Assembly (NCBI GenBank): GCA_004297985.1
Contig: SCRA01000012.1
Coordinates: 1 to 55,507, forward strand
DNA: 55,507 bases
Direction of reading: 5' to 3'
Source of the DNA: a bacterium
GTDB lineage: Bacteria > Vulcanimicrobiota > Vulcanimicrobiia > Vulcanimicrobiales > SCRA01
Made by a program: the position numbers and the translations under genes. A model generated the notes under the pieces. The model had not been told where the DNA came from, searched no databases, and was given only the letters and a program-made list of their open reading frames with translations. Below are positions 17,347 to 39,680 of the stretch, piece by piece. Within the stretch, counting starts at the first letter, position 1. Every line of letters starts with the position of its first letter.

Positions 17347-17374
17347 ATTGTAGTCAAGACTGCTGTCTTGTCAA
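17347..17374 (-). promoter_or_regulatory. Sigma70-type promoter of the NCS1-niaR operon, giving a leaderless mRNA
   Basis: On the minus strand a perfect -35 TTGACA (17374-17369) is followed after 16 bases by TACAAT (17352-17347), five of six matches to the -10 consensus. The expected +1 is about 17340, directly next to ATG 17339, so the transcript should be leaderless or nearly so. The -35 lies in the centre of the 32-bp palindrome, so a bound repressor would exclude RNA polymerase. Confidence 0.8.
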
Positions 17375-17390
17375 TTGACAAGACAGCAGT
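17359..17390. promoter_or_regulatory. Perfect 32-bp palindrome, candidate NiaR operator
   Basis: Sixteen bases (ACTGCTGTCTTGTCAA) are followed by their exact reverse complement without a spacer. The half-site carries TGTCTTG, resembling the TGTC-containing half-sites I recall for NiaR-type regulators. The palindrome covers the -35 of the permease-niaR promoter, the usual place for a repressor site. It lies 19 bp from the end of ilvE on the other side. It could in addition act as a hairpin at the end of ilvE transcription, but it has no U-run. Confidence 0.75.
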
Positions 17391-17409
17391 CGGACCTGGC
17401 TACGCTCCG

Positions 17410-34114: not shown

Positions 34115-34880
34115 CCGCCGCGCCGCCTTTCACGAACTCCGTCTCCGTCTGGCGGGCCGGGAAGGCTTCGTGCCGAGCCTGGGCGAGGGGCTCCAGCCGA
34201 CCGGCCTCCCCGTCCTCGACCGCATGCTGGGGGGCGGCCTCCCCGCCGCATCGCTAGTCGCCCTCGAGGGGGCAGGCTCTTGGAGTCTGGCGGCGGCACT
34301 GCTCGCCGGGGCCACCGCCAATGGTCTGGCCGCCGCCGTTGACGACGGTAGCCTCTATCCGCCGGCATTGGCCGCCGCGGGCGCGGACCTCGACCGGCTC
34401 CTGGTTGTCCATCCACCGCAAGAGGCGCTGGCCCAGGCACGAGCCGCCGATTTGCTCTTGCGCCCCGGCAGCTTCGCGCTGGTGGCGCTGGCGGCGTCCC
34501 CGGTGGCGCACCCCGTCTGGCAGCGCTTGGCCACCCTCTGCGAGCGGGGCGGCTCCTCGCTGCTCGTGGTCGACGCCACCTCGGCGGGGCCGCAGGCGGC
34601 GGCGCCGGCCGCCGTGCGGCTGCGCTGCGAGATCGAGGAGGGGCTCTGGGAAGGGCCGGCCGGCCACCTCTGCCGCCTCGCGGGCTATCGGGTCCGCGTG
34701 GTGCTGCGCAAGCACCGGCGAGGGCGTATCGGCGGCGAGGCGCTGATCGAGATGCGTTGCGAGGGAGCCTCCGATGGCGATAGCCTGCGTCTTCATCCCC
34801 TCCTTTCCCCTGGCCGCCGCATGGAGGGAGCGAACCGCGTGCGCGACGTTGCCGGCGCAGGCGGCGGTCCTGGTGATTAA
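34095..34880 (+). CDS. imuA: ImuA, RecA-like accessory protein of the mutasome
   Basis: The 261-residue protein has the RecA-fold opening of ImuA/SulA-like proteins (LQPTGLPVLDRMLGGGLPAASLVALEGAGSWSLAAALL). The P-loop is degenerate: EGAGSWS (residues 58-64) lacks the Lys, so ATP hydrolysis is doubtful. ImuA links translesion polymerases to RecA filaments. The position directly before imuB and dnaE2, and the LexA-controlled promoter, support the call. The start ATG 34095 is fixed by the promoter. Its last 107 bases overlap the imuB start, so about 35 C-terminal residues are encoded in two frames. Confidence 0.85.
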   Translation: MESLALDRRAAFHELRLRLAGREGFVPSLGEGLQPTGLPVLDRMLGGGLPAASLVALEGAGSWSLAAALLAGATANGLAAAVDDGSLYPPALAAAGADLDRLLVVHPPQEALAQARAADLLLRPGSFALVALAASPVAHPVWQRLATLCERGGSSLLVVDATSAGPQAAAPAAVRLRCEIEEGLWEGPAGHLCRLAGYRVRVVLRKHRRGRIGGEALIEMRCEGASDGDSLRLHPLLSPGRRMEGANRVRDVAGAGGGPGD

Positions 34881-36252
34881 CCGTCCGCAGCGCGGCCAGG
34901 TGATCGCGCTCTCCGCCGCCGCGCGGACGATGGGGGCGCGGCTGGGGATGAGCCAGGTGCAGGCGGCGGCCGCGGCGCCGGAGAGTGAGGTTCTGGTGCA
35001 CGACCCCGCGCTCACCCAGCGCTGCTGGGAGGAGGCGCTGGAGGCGCTCGACGCGGCGAGCCCCGCCGTCGAGAGCCCGCGCGCCGGCGTAGCCTACCTG
35101 GATCTGCGCGGCATCCCATTGACGCTAGAACAACAGCGCGAGCGCATCGCGCGCACGCTGGGCGCCTGGCCGGCACGGGTGGGAATCGCGTCGACGCGGC
35201 TGGCCGCCTATGCCGCGGCCCGCGAGCGGCGCATCGTCGCGCCGCAGGAAGAGGCGGCCTTCCTCGCCGTGCAGCCGCTGCGTCTGCTGGGGCTGCACGC
35301 GGAGGATCAGGAGCGTTTGGCGCTGCTGGGCGTTCGTCGCTTGGGGCAGCTGGCGGCGCTCCCGGGCGGCGGGCTGGCGCGCCGCTTCGGCGCGCAGGCG
35401 CTGCGCTGGCACGCGCTGGCGCGCGGCGAGGATCGCACTCCGTTGCGCCCACGTCCGCGCCACACCACCGTCGCGGCGAGCGCGCAGGCGCAGGAGCCCA
35501 TCGATCGCATGGAGGCGATCCTCTTCGCCTGTCGCGGGCTGATCGAGCAGCTCGCCGCCGATCTCCAACGCGCCGGACGGCGCTGCGCGCGACTGGAGCT
35601 GACGCTGGAGAGCGAGCGTGGCGAGGCGCGCCGTCTGCGCTGCGAAGTGGCCTCACCGACGGCCCGCGCCGAGGTGCTGCTGGCCTTGGTGCGCGCGCGT
35701 TTGGAGGGCGTGGCGGAGGGGCGCGAAGGCGCGATCTGCGAGGCGGTGAGCGGGGCGCGCGTGGAGGCCGTGCGCGTGGAGGATGGCGGCATCCCGCTCT
35801 CGCTGCTGGCAGAGTCGCGCCCCGACTCCGAGACGCTGCAGACGGCGCTGGCGCGCGTAGCGGGCGCTTTCGGCGAAGAGAGCCTGCGCCGCGCCGAAGT
35901 GCGTGAGGCCTTTCGCCCCGAGGGGCGTTTTGCGTACGCGCCGTTCGACGCGCGCAGTGCCTTGGCGTCGGTGGAGCGGCACCGCACCGCGTCCGATACC
36001 GCGACGCAGCCTTCGGCGCATCTGCGCCTGCTGCACGAACGGCGCGAGATCGTTGTGCGCCTGCGCCGCGGCGTGCCGTGTGCGGTGGGTGATGACGAAG
36101 TCGTGGAAGTGGCCGGCCCGTGGCGCACCGCCGAGCGCTGGTGGAGCGAGGGCAGCGAGCGCGACGACTACGACGTGCAGACCGCCGCCGGCACGCTGCT
36201 GCGCATCGCGCGCGAAGGCGCACGCTGGTACGTGCTCGGGAGCTATGCATAA
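34774..36252 (+). CDS. imuB: ImuB, Y-family polymerase-like mutasome hub
   Basis: The 492-residue protein has the ImuB form of the Y-family fold: N-terminus AIACVFIPSFPLAAAWRE, PAVESPRAGVAYLDLRGI, the little-finger region and a C-terminal domain ending RRGVPCAVGDDEVVEVAGPWRTAERWWSE...DDYDVQTAAGTLLRIAREGARWYVLGSYA. The catalytic acidic residues of true Y-polymerases are not evident, as in other ImuB proteins, which act as a scaffold joining ImuA, DnaE2 and the beta clamp. The start ATG 34774 lies within imuA and has GAGGGAG upstream. dnaE2 begins 17 bases after its stop. Confidence 0.92.
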   Translation: MAIACVFIPSFPLAAAWRERTACATLPAQAAVLVINRPQRGQVIALSAAARTMGARLGMSQVQAAAAAPESEVLVHDPALTQRCWEEALEALDAASPAVESPRAGVAYLDLRGIPLTLEQQRERIARTLGAWPARVGIASTRLAAYAAARERRIVAPQEEAAFLAVQPLRLLGLHAEDQERLALLGVRRLGQLAALPGGGLARRFGAQALRWHALARGEDRTPLRPRPRHTTVAASAQAQEPIDRMEAILFACRGLIEQLAADLQRAGRRCARLELTLESERGEARRLRCEVASPTARAEVLLALVRARLEGVAEGREGAICEAVSGARVEAVRVEDGGIPLSLLAESRPDSETLQTALARVAGAFGEESLRRAEVREAFRPEGRFAYAPFDARSALASVERHRTASDTATQPSAHLRLLHERREIVVRLRRGVPCAVGDDEVVEVAGPWRTAERWWSEGSERDDYDVQTAAGTLLRIAREGARWYVLGSYA

Positions 36253-36266
36253 GAGCGAGGTGATTG

Positions 36267-36389
36267 CCCATGCTTCTCGAGAGGCCTCAAGACGCCGCGA
36301 GAGCCCTGGATGGGCGTAGCGGCGTCGCAGTGGAGGTGACTGAGCGCGCAGGAGCGCGCGCGAGGGAACGTCCTCGAGGGAAGCATGGG
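36267..36389. repeat. Palindrome-rich element 1, spanning the dnaE2 start codon
   Basis: Outer arms CCCATGCTTC (36267-36276) and its complement (36380-36389) enclose 103 bases containing further perfect stems: GACGCCGC with GCGGCGTC (36291-36298 and 36319-36326, with an inner GCCC/GGGC), a GCGCGC/GCGCGC hairpin and CGAGG/CCTCG. The 123-bp length is a multiple of three, and the unit contributes most of a 40-residue N-terminal extension of DnaE2. The initiator ATG is inside the left arm. Confidence 0.75.
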
Positions 36390-39300
36390 CAACCACCGAG
36401 CGGCTACGCGGAGCTGCACGCGTGGTCGAACTTCTCGTTCCTGCGCGCGGCGGCTCACCCTGAGGATCTCGCGGAGCGCGCCGCGGCGATCGGCTTGCGC
36501 GCGCTGGCGCTCACCGATCGCGACGGTCTCTACGGCACCGTGCGCCTCTGCCGCGCGGCGCGCGCGGCGGGCCTGCAGGGGATCGTCGGTGCGGAGCTCT
36601 CGTTGGAGGGCGGCGGCTCCCTGGTGCTGCTGGCGCGGACGCGCGCGGGGTACGCCAATCTCTGCCGGGCGATCTCCACGGCGCAGTTGCGCGGGAGCAA
36701 AGGCGATGCGCGCCTGCGCTGGGATGACCTCGACGGACGAGCTAACGATTTGATCGCCCTCTCCGGCTGGCCGCCGCCGGAGGATGCGCAGGCGTGTGCG
36801 GAGCGCCTGCGCGCGCTCTTCGGCGAGTGCGCCTACTTGGAGCTTCAGCATCATCTGCGCCCCGAGGACGCCGCGCTGGTGCGGCGCACCGTGGCGCTGG
36901 CACGCCGCCTGCGCATGCCGTACGTGGCTACCAACGGCGTGCGCTACGCCGTGCGCGAGGACCGCCAGCTCTGCGACGTGCTCACCTGCGTGCGCGAGAA
37001 GACCACGCTTGCCGCCGCCGGCACGCGCTTGGAGGCCAATGCGGAGGCTCATCTCAAGGATGCCGCGGCGATGTACCGCCTCTTCGCGCCCTATCCCGAG
37101 GCGCTCCGCGCCACGCTGGAGATCGCGGAGGCCTGCACGTTCTCGCTCGATCGGCTGGAGGGGCAGTTTCCTTCGTTCCCCGTGCCGGAGGCGTTCGAGA
37201 GCGCGCAGATCTATCTGCGTCACCTGGTTTTCCACGGCGCGCGCGAGCGGTACGGCTCTCCGCTGCCGCGCGATGTGGAGCGGCAGATCGACTACGAGCT
37301 GGGGATCATCGCCAAGTTCGATCTCGCCGGCTACTTTCTGGTGGTATGGGACATCGTGCAGGCGGCGCACCGTCTCGACGTCCTCTGCCAGGGGCGGGGA
37401 AGCGCGGCGAACTCCGCCGTCTGCTACTGCCTGGGCATCACCGCCGTCGATCCCATCCGCAGCGGCTTGCTCTTCGAGCGCTTTCTCTCCGAGGAACGCG
37501 CCGAGGTCCCCGACATCGACATCGACTTCGCCCACCAAGATCGCGAGCGGGTGATCCAGTACGCCTACGAGCGCTACGGCCGCGCCCACGCCGCCATGGT
37601 GGCCGAAGTGATCACCTACCGCGCGCGCAGCGCCATTCGCGACGTCGGCAAAGTGCTCGGCCTCTCGCTGGCCCAAGTTGGCGCGATCGCCAAAGAGTAC
37701 GACGCCCGCGAGTCACTTGCCACCGGAGAGCAAGGCGAGGGATATCCCTGGAGACCCGATGCAGACGGAGGGGAGACGGGGAATGCCAGAGAGCGGGATG
37801 AGAGGCATTCCCGCAGGGGGGATGTGAATTCGCGGCGGAGCCGTGACGGCGAGAGCCGCGAAGAGGTTCAGCGAGGGTTTTCACAGGACGTGAAAACCGG
37901 AGCGGCCCCCGGAGGAGGTGTCCCTCGTCTCGCTCTCGATCGTAGTCATGTGCCGATCGGTGGCGATATCGGCGAGCTTCTGTTCGAGCTCTGCAAGCGC
38001 ATCGAGAAGTATCCGCGGCATCTGGGCATTCACTCCGGAGGGATGTTGCTCACGCGCGATCCGCTGATCGAGGTGGCGCCGGTGGAGTGGGCGACGATGG
38101 CGCAGCGCAGCGTGGTGCAGTGGGACAAGGACGATCTCGCCGACTTGGGTTTGGTGAAGATCGACTTGCTGGGCTTGGGGATGCTCTCGCTGCTGCGCGA
38201 TGCCTTCGCCATGCATAACCGCATGCACCCGGAGCATCCGCTCGCGCTGCGCACGGTGCCGCCGGAGGATGCCCAGACCTACGAGATGCTCTGCCGCGCC
38301 GACTCGGTGGGCGTCTTCCAAGTGGAGAGCCGCGCGCAGATGGCGATGCTGCCGCGCCTGCGCCCGCGCTGCTTCTACGATCTGGTGATGCAGGTGGCCA
38401 TCATCCGCCCGGGGCCGATCCAAGGCGAGATGGTGCACCCGTTCCTGCGGCGGCGCAACGGTCAGGAGCCCGTCACCTATCCGCATCCCAAGCTCCAGCC
38501 CGTGCTCGAGCGCACGTTGGGCGTACCGCTCTTTCAGGAGCAGGGGATGCGTCTGGCGATCGTGGCCGCCGGCTTCACGGCGGGGCAGGCCGATCAACTG
38601 CGCCGCGCGATGGGCAACAAGCGCTCGCGCGAGCGCATGGCGGAGCTCTATCCCAAGCTGATCGAGGGCATGGCCTGCAACGGCATCGATCGCGAGGCTG
38701 CAGAGCGCCTCTTCCAGATGCTCCAAGGCTTCGCCGACTACGGCTTCCCGGAGAGCCATGCCGCCAGCTTCGCGCTGCTGGTCTACGCCTCGGCGTACTT
38801 GAAGCGCCACCACCCCGCGATCTTCACGGCGGCGCTGCTCAACGCGCAGCCGATGGGCTTCTACAGCACCAGCACCGTCGTCAACGACGCCAAGCGCCAC
38901 GGCATCACCGTGCGCCCGCCGCGCGTCGGCGCCAGTGCATGGTGGAGTAACGCCGTTGCCGGCGGCGTGGTGCAGTTGGGCTACCATCTCGTGCGCGCGA
39001 TCGGCGGCCGTCAGCGCGAGCGCATCGAAACGGCGCTTGCCGAAGGGCGCCCCTTCGCGAGTCTGGTGGACTTCGCGCGCCGCACCGGCCTCCCGCGCGC
39101 CGCGTTGGAGAGCCTCGCCTCGGTGGGCGCCTTCGAGCCGTGGTATCGCGACCGTCGCCGCGCGCTCTGGGAGGTGGCGGCGCTGATCGAGCGCGAGGGG
39201 CGCGGAGATCTCGGGCGCCTGATGGAGATCGAGGAGGGCGCGACGCCGCTGGTGCCGCCTAGCGCTCCCGAGGAGACGGCGCTCGATTTCTGGGGGCTGG

Positions 39301-39680
39301 GCCTCACCACGCGCCGCCACCCCATCTCCTACGTGCGCGGCCTCCTGCAGCGCCGGCGTGTGGCCAGCGCCGCGGCGCTCGCGCGCCTGCGCGACGGCGT
39401 GCGCACGCGCGTCGGCGGCCTGGTCATCACGCGTCAGCGCCCCGGTACCGCCAAAGGCTTCGTCTTCCTCACGCTGGAGGACGAGACGGGCGTGGTCAAC
39501 GTGGTGCTGAAGCCGAAGATCTACGAGCGCTTCCGCCGCGTGGCGCGACAGTCGGAGGCGCTGATCGTGGACGGCGTACTGCAGAGCGAGCAGGGCGTGA
39601 TCCACGTGATCGCCACGGAGCTCGCGCCGCTCGATCTCGAAGGCCTCACGCGCGGTACCCGCTCACACGATTTCCACTGA
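36270..39680 (+). CDS. dnaE2: Error-prone DNA polymerase DnaE2
   Basis: The 1136-residue C-family polymerase completes the SOS mutasome. It has a PHP domain (residues 47-, YAELHAWSNFSFLRAAAHPEDLAERA), the polymerase Asp motif PDIDIDF (about 414-420) and VKIDLLGLGMLSLL, GIHSGGMLLT, RHLGIHSGG, the fingers motif RPGPIQGEMVHPFLRRR and a C-terminal OB fold (TRVGGLVITRQRPGTAKGFVFLTLEDETGVVNVVL). The second His of the PHP LHxHS motif is Trp here, typical of loss of PHP nuclease. The ATG at 36270 has AGGTGA upstream and lies inside a palindromic element. A second element adds 64 low-complexity residues (about 489-552) in the palm region. Confidence 0.95.
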   Translation: MLLERPQDAARALDGRSGVAVEVTERAGARARERPRGKHGQPPSGYAELHAWSNFSFLRAAAHPEDLAERAAAIGLRALALTDRDGLYGTVRLCRAARAAGLQGIVGAELSLEGGGSLVLLARTRAGYANLCRAISTAQLRGSKGDARLRWDDLDGRANDLIALSGWPPPEDAQACAERLRALFGECAYLELQHHLRPEDAALVRRTVALARRLRMPYVATNGVRYAVREDRQLCDVLTCVREKTTLAAAGTRLEANAEAHLKDAAAMYRLFAPYPEALRATLEIAEACTFSLDRLEGQFPSFPVPEAFESAQIYLRHLVFHGARERYGSPLPRDVERQIDYELGIIAKFDLAGYFLVVWDIVQAAHRLDVLCQGRGSAANSAVCYCLGITAVDPIRSGLLFERFLSEERAEVPDIDIDFAHQDRERVIQYAYERYGRAHAAMVAEVITYRARSAIRDVGKVLGLSLAQVGAIAKEYDARESLATGEQGEGYPWRPDADGGETGNARERDERHSRRGDVNSRRSRDGESREEVQRGFSQDVKTGAAPGGGVPRLALDRSHVPIGGDIGELLFELCKRIEKYPRHLGIHSGGMLLTRDPLIEVAPVEWATMAQRSVVQWDKDDLADLGLVKIDLLGLGMLSLLRDAFAMHNRMHPEHPLALRTVPPEDAQTYEMLCRADSVGVFQVESRAQMAMLPRLRPRCFYDLVMQVAIIRPGPIQGEMVHPFLRRRNGQEPVTYPHPKLQPVLERTLGVPLFQEQGMRLAIVAAGFTAGQADQLRRAMGNKRSRERMAELYPKLIEGMACNGIDREAAERLFQMLQGFADYGFPESHAASFALLVYASAYLKRHHPAIFTAALLNAQPMGFYSTSTVVNDAKRHGITVRPPRVGASAWWSNAVAGGVVQLGYHLVRAIGGRQRERIETALAEGRPFASLVDFARRTGLPRAALESLASVGAFEPWYRDRRRALWEVAALIEREGRGDLGRLMEIEEGATPLVPPSAPEETALDFWGLGLTTRRHPISYVRGLLQRRRVASAAALARLRDGVRTRVGGLVITRQRPGTAKGFVFLTLEDETGVVNVVLKPKIYERFRRVARQSEALIVDGVLQSEQGVIHVIATELAPLDLEGLTRGTRSHDFH
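37736..37927. repeat. Palindrome-rich element 2, in-frame inside dnaE2 (192 bp)
   Basis: Terminal arms CGAGGGATA (37736-37744) and TGTCCCTCG (37919-37927) pair over nine positions with one G-T wobble. Inside are three perfect stems: GGGAATGCC/GGCATTCCC (37779-37787, 37804-37812), CGCGGC/GCCGCG (37831-37836, 37855-37860) and GGTTTTCAC/GTGAAAACC (37876-37884, 37890-37898). The segment is exactly 64 codons and encodes Arg/Gly/Asp/Glu-rich sequence absent from the conserved polymerase core. The DnaE2 sequence on both sides is normal. Confidence 0.82.

Follow-up and report, generated by a model that had tools for sequence, protein, structure and literature searches.

A family of structured palindromic repeats in Eremiobacterota with an in-frame copy inside dnaE2

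The window analyzed here, a 55,507-nucleotide stretch spanning positions 1 to 55,507 of contig SCRA01000012.1 (assembly GCA_004297985.1), carries on its forward strand imuB (34774..36252; IMS and IMS_C domains by Pfam) and its downstream neighbor dnaE2 (36264..39680), an open reading frame (ORF) of 1138 amino acids with PHP, Pol III alpha, finger, HHH and OB domains by Pfam. Two copies of a structured palindromic repeat are located at this locus, one at the junction between the imuB stop and the dnaE2 start and the other inside dnaE2, the reading frame of which is open across the whole element. Elsewhere in the window, a spacer contains a perfect palindrome, GACTGCTGTCTTGTCAATTGACAAGACAGCAGTC (17358-17391), that is possibly the operator of a regulator.

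The original prediction, made from the sequence alone, placed an unusually structured element at 37736-37927. The unusual folding is borne out by comparison with dinucleotide shuffles: the forward strand folds with an energy of -89.4 kcal/mol (shuffles, -69.2 +/- 4.1; z -5.0) and the opposite strand with -76.7 kcal/mol (z -5.0), and no shuffle equaled the native energy on either strand. The structured element is real, but its proposed ends need revision. An inverted-repeat search yields a wider paired region (37726-37937), in which the repeat itself consists, on the forward strand, of a core at 37813..37913 enclosed by a decayed 5′ outer arm (37789..37812) and a 3′ outer arm (37914..37937), both delineated by inverted-repeat search and alignment. 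The element is a repeat of roughly 150 bases lying in frame, and its supposed length of exactly 64 codons was an artefact of which ends were chosen. In the inverted-repeat search, positions 37789-37820 and 37906-37937 are 72% complementary, and a partial second copy of the 5′ arm (37726..37742, forward strand; inverted repeat and alignment) is found 63 bp, or 21 codons, upstream, its 17 nt pairing with 37921-37937 at 88%. Within the core, the fold and the covariance model define, on the forward strand, hairpin P2, TTCGCGGC-GGA-GCCG-TGA-CGGC-GAGA-GCCGCGAA (37829..37862), and hairpin P3, GGTTTTCAC-AGGAC-GTGAAAACC (37876..37898). The latter (GTTTTCAC-AGGAC-GTGAAAAC) is of a type common in other genera (L236, L251) and differs from the GC-rich P3 type that prevails in its own genome. 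A 9-bp hairpin, GGGAATGCC/GGCATTCCC, is present in the single-sequence fold but lies outside the family consensus. No clean target-site duplication was seen; a possible 7-bp ACCGGAG repeat is present at the site and may itself belong to the element.

Direct BLAST searches with the in-dnaE2 element return only the self-match, and its kinship is visible only through a covariance model. Trained on seven other repeats of the same genome, with the in-dnaE2 element left out, model R1 matches the core with 53.3 bits (E 1.5e-9 in 436 kb), compared with approximately 22 bits for background matches, and a refined version of the model, R2, assigns it 71.4 bits. This result bears on the notion that the segment reflects ordinary growth of a DnaE2 linker, with chance palindromes arising in a GC-rich gene. 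Linker length does vary in the order, from 13 to more than 80 residues, but the blind covariance-model match refutes such an account, which is further contradicted by the folding energy and by the further family members in the genome, and we assign it practically no credence.

The core of the junction copy (36275..36379, forward strand) is 89% identical to other genomic copies, with matches at five further sites of the 3.19-Mb genome, and scores 68.5 bits with R1, a value that is not blind, since this copy belonged to the training set. With its 17-nt outer stem, GGTGATTGCCCATGCTT / AAGCATGGGCAACCACC, the copy spans 36259..36395 on the forward strand according to inverted-repeat search and arm analysis, and the inverted-repeat search delimits palindrome arms of 44 nt (36241-36284 and 36372-36415). 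The junction copy is absent from both same-genus relatives compared (G002 and G003). Owing to its presence, the native dnaE2 start is out of frame in the 36245-36270 region. An in-frame ATG at 36270, located 6 nt past GAGGTGA and within the 5′ arm of the copy, is probably the new start codon, and the repeat may therefore provide the start of dnaE2.

In a 418-kb sample of the genome, the junction copy joins a nine-place family with one architecture, and the genome as a whole contains approximately 25 copies. The covariance search for relatives suggested by the original prediction yields many other copies in this genome and in others: at E<=1, R1 produces 27, 19, 13 and 3 matches across the four genomes that represent the genus, and R2 produces at least 399 matches, spread over 74 of the 149 Eremiobacterota genomes and three families of the phylum. 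Neither the window nor any copy of the element has a match at gathering score in Rfam 15, and weak miRNA-type Rfam matches reflect the long hairpin only. This repeat family of Eremiobacterota, absent from Rfam, has not been described before. The family was unmatched in plasmids and in viral contigs, the latter searched with an exact 20-base motif, and inspection of one inverted element pair (L287) revealed nothing clear in the way of an intervening gene that could denote an autonomous form. Copies recur across genera in operon spacers, namely in infB/rbfA, the ATP synthase operon, lpd/lipA, guaA/purD and imuB/dnaE2. Divergent pairs of copies, about 100-260 bp apart, are frequent (L181, L222, L226, L198, L274, L291), and in the genus of the window such pairs combine one member of each of two subtypes. 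In one genome (G001, L206), a 6S RNA gene (1261-1443) closely precedes an element copy (1501-1600).

Each copy comprises a core of approximately 100 nt with two hairpins and conserved unpaired bases, enclosed by an outer stem; the model core has 101 positions and four helices. The outer stem is followed by P2, which has an internal loop of the GGA/GAGA type and a GGAT-type loop; a linker then leads to P3, whose loop is of the AGGA type. Among 74 distinct copies, standard pairs occupy 92.4% of pair cells (64.3% when shuffled), 24 of 26 pairs display two-sided changes, and the covariation score reaches 0.601, whereas shuffled controls reach 0.134 and slid controls 0.045-0.128. Because the copies were aligned by fitting them to the model, these figures lean towards structure, but the margin is large nonetheless. 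The unpaired motifs GGAGCC..GGAT..GAGAGC, AG.AG and AGGA are conserved across genera. The fold is maintained while the sequence changes.

The two-sided changes, the conserved unpaired motifs and the recurrence of copies in operon spacers across genera would also fit a functional structured RNA, either an intercistronic mRNA element or a small RNA, with a selected fold and a regulatory role in dnaE2, such as translation pausing of the mutator polymerase. We deem this unlikely. The family is lacking in half of the genomes, sequence is not conserved in the outer arms, and the core occurs in both orientations at single orthologous sites, one of them inside dnaE2, so that a strand-specific RNA role is not general; some operon copies may still have an RNA role.

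These orientation changes, and the behavior of the arms, are evident when orthologous sites are compared. The outer stem, usually 15-43 bp long, is near-perfect in most intact copies and unrelated between sites. At one orthologous site in two species (L215/L216), flank identity is 92-94%; the arms differ greatly, yet each pair remains self-complementary. Among draft assemblies, in which mis-assembly at inverted repeats is possible for single cases, core identity at this site is 55% as is and 95% when flipped, the corresponding figures being 64% and 96% at L197/L198 and 50% and 81% in the dnaE2 genes of G068 and G069; collinearity holds on both flanks in the first two comparisons. Inside dnaE2, it is the G069 core that is inverted with respect to G068 and G070, and the arm differences between G068 and G069, as read from the sequence, are largely synonymous and compensated. 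Comparisons between genera reveal further inverted cores, at infB/rbfA and within the ATP synthase operon, and other sites keep their orientation.

Template switching is known to generate and repair perfect stems (PMC8794818), and arms that pair almost perfectly, yet bear no relation from one orthologous copy to the next, could be taken to mean that the covariation is purely mutational, generated by the template-switch correction of palindromes documented in that work, with a fold recognized by no factor. Such an origin leaves the cross-genus conservation of unpaired core positions and the copy number unexplained, and we judge it unlikely. We favor instead a family with a core that would be recognized by an enzyme acting in trans.

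Comparison with relatives also sheds light on the history of the in-gene element. The insertion-free DnaE2 that the original prediction proposed to seek by alignment is found in the sister species G003, where the linker between 'DARES' and 'LLFELCKRI' spans 8 residues, compared with 87 in this genome, and DnaE2 proteins do not conserve this region. The short connector attributed to homologous polymerases is indeed present in the same genus and in genus g5, but many relatives have a native linker of 50-80 amino acids. At this site, G003 has no trace of the element and G002 keeps its 3′ end only (AAAACCGGAGCGGCCCC..). This remnant indicates that the in-gene element most likely predates the split between this genome (G000) and G002, and was then largely deleted in frame in G002. 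Across genera, cores at the same site are often closer to paralogues of their own genome than to orthologues (L289, 0.93 vs 0.72; L239, 0.92 vs 0.62), which points to recurrent insertion or gene conversion.

Among approximately 110 copies examined, the only convincing coding hosts are five dnaE2 genes (G000, G068, G069, G070 and G060). In the last four, the copy occupies a second DnaE2 loop, located after what we take to be the third catalytic-aspartate helix. The four sense copies in dnaE2 are all read in the only forward frame that is free of stops. Three of the loci (L254-L256) were chosen for adjoining dnaE2 and fall outside the unbiased sample, which includes the window element and L228 (G069). 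Spanning ORFs outside dnaE2 proved on inspection to be spurious or to run into a downstream start (L231, before rbfA). Additional copies are found at dnaE2 ends in G000, G014 (two) and G023. With 399 copies over 2.8-Mb genomes, the random expectation is approximately 0.5 copies per 3.3-kb gene, a figure that common descent within g32 and hidden hot spots render indicative only. The same DnaE2 loops host other, unrelated in-frame repeats (CHPERSE.., CVMLSLSKHP.., NASDACANASDAC..), and therefore look permissive for insertion. In an AlphaFold model of DnaE2, residues 437-519, which span the insert, are predicted as coil with pLDDT ~25, in a weak model (11 sequences, pTM 0.43).

Several observations on dnaE2 accompany this analysis. 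Other repeat-derived peptides, comprising a tandem CHPERSECASAHV as well as CHPEEHRREA, CVMLSLSKHP, NASDACANASDAC and HPDVTAD, appear in frame in these two loops in the dnaE2 genes of G004, G083, G070 and G068 (L257, L259, L254, L255). A third loop, in the PHP domain near reference residue 69, has variable in-frame insertions (L267/L268 and relatives), with CHPEPVEGRP in G100. Two genomes, G060 and G091, encode two dnaE2-like genes each, and only one of the G060 pair carries the element.

Taken together, the segment is probably a copy of a non-autonomous structured palindromic repeat family interspersed in Eremiobacterota, spread by an enzyme in trans, renewed by template switching and tolerated in dnaE2. 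Mobility is suggested, at the level of sequence, by copy number, by absence of the element at the site in relatives and by lineage-specific subfamilies. Copies would spread as hairpin DNA, the trans-acting enzyme recognizing the conserved core, and would land mainly in short spacers between operon genes. Template switching between arms during replication would then keep the arms complementary and flip the core; this renewal of the arms and flipping is our inference from the comparisons above. In dnaE2, the element may lie in a permissive, disordered loop of the thumb region, where selection would have retained only an in-frame, stop-free copy that the polymerase tolerates and does not need. 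A broader proposition, that these are phylum-wide, self-renewing, invertible palindromes in which a template switch between the outer arms flips the core and rewrites both arms together, leaving each locus with its own near-perfect stem around a conserved core, and that dnaE2 is the only gene with loops repeatedly taking up such repeats in frame, is put forward more tentatively, as somewhat less than an even prospect.

The nature of the enzyme is where this proposal meets that of a REP or REPIN mobilized by RAYT. The repeats are palindromic, interspersed, often arranged as inverted pairs and intragenic in dnaE2, as REPs are (PMC3733652). The Y1 transposase (PF01797) is, however, absent from this genome and present in only 5 of 74 carrier genomes, compared with 16 of 75 genomes without the element, and a multi-helix core of approximately 100 nt lacking a terminal unpaired GTAG contrasts with a single hairpin of 20-40 bp. 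Barring loss of the transposase or involvement of another family, we view RAYT mobilization as very unlikely and retain a different enzyme acting in trans as the favored reading.

The family adds a structured repeat, outside Rfam, to a little-studied phylum. It also supplies natural material to separate selection from template switching as the source of compensatory changes: a given site is available for comparison in several species, with both core orientations and different self-complementary arms, even under coding constraint. Moreover, it extends an old, unexplained remark on palindromic repeats inside repair polymerase genes, pointing to several repeat families and to recurrent in-frame insertion in the same DnaE2 loops.

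The original prediction, which likened in principle a structured, REP-like element tolerated in frame to the Rickettsia palindromic elements (RPE), is well backed by the family, its covariation and the open frame. Neither outcome that would have refuted it was observed, as DnaE2 does not conserve the region and both further copies and significant folding are present, but comparison of membership criteria leaves membership in RPE or in RAYT-linked REPs unsupported. REPs of the GTAG and CGTC super-families (PMC3733652) are likewise short interspersed palindromes, mostly intergenic and often oppositely paired, with intragenic copies in repair genes including dnaE2, and the CGTC types lack a transposase. 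In contrast to the single 5-13 bp stem of a REP, the family has an outer stem around a core of approximately 100 nt that contains two hairpins and an internal loop; it has no unpaired GTAG or CGTC end tag, GTAG being internal and found in part of the copies only, its outer arms are private to each site, and it is not linked to RAYT. The CGTC REP, with a stem of 8-9 bp, a loop of 4-5 nt, an unpaired CGTC end tag and a CCA tail, was discarded as a match, given the different architecture of the family core. Rickettsia is known to have palindromic elements inserted in frame (PMC10969869), and the family resembles RPE in its length of approximately 150 bp, its palindromic nature and its in-frame, translated position within protein genes, as seen in the open frame of five dnaE2 genes. 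RPE occupy many unrelated host genes, whereas in-gene copies of this family were found in dnaE2 only among approximately 110 copies examined, and the two are further set apart by description: the phylum is different, the stems of the family are rewritten with pairing kept, and the core inverts in place. Miniature inverted-repeat elements (MITE) share a length below 500 bp, terminal inverted repeats, structure, multiple copies and the lack of an own gene, but the outer arms of the family, usually 15-43 bp, are unrelated between sites and do not constitute a shared family sequence, and neither a parent insertion sequence, in a search covering the Y1 family, nor a clear target duplication was found. 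Insertions of REPs in DnaE2 and other DNA repair genes were already reported in 2013 by Di Nocera et al. (PMC3733652); what is new here is a phylum-wide family with a two-hairpin core in an outer stem, private arms and in-place inversion.
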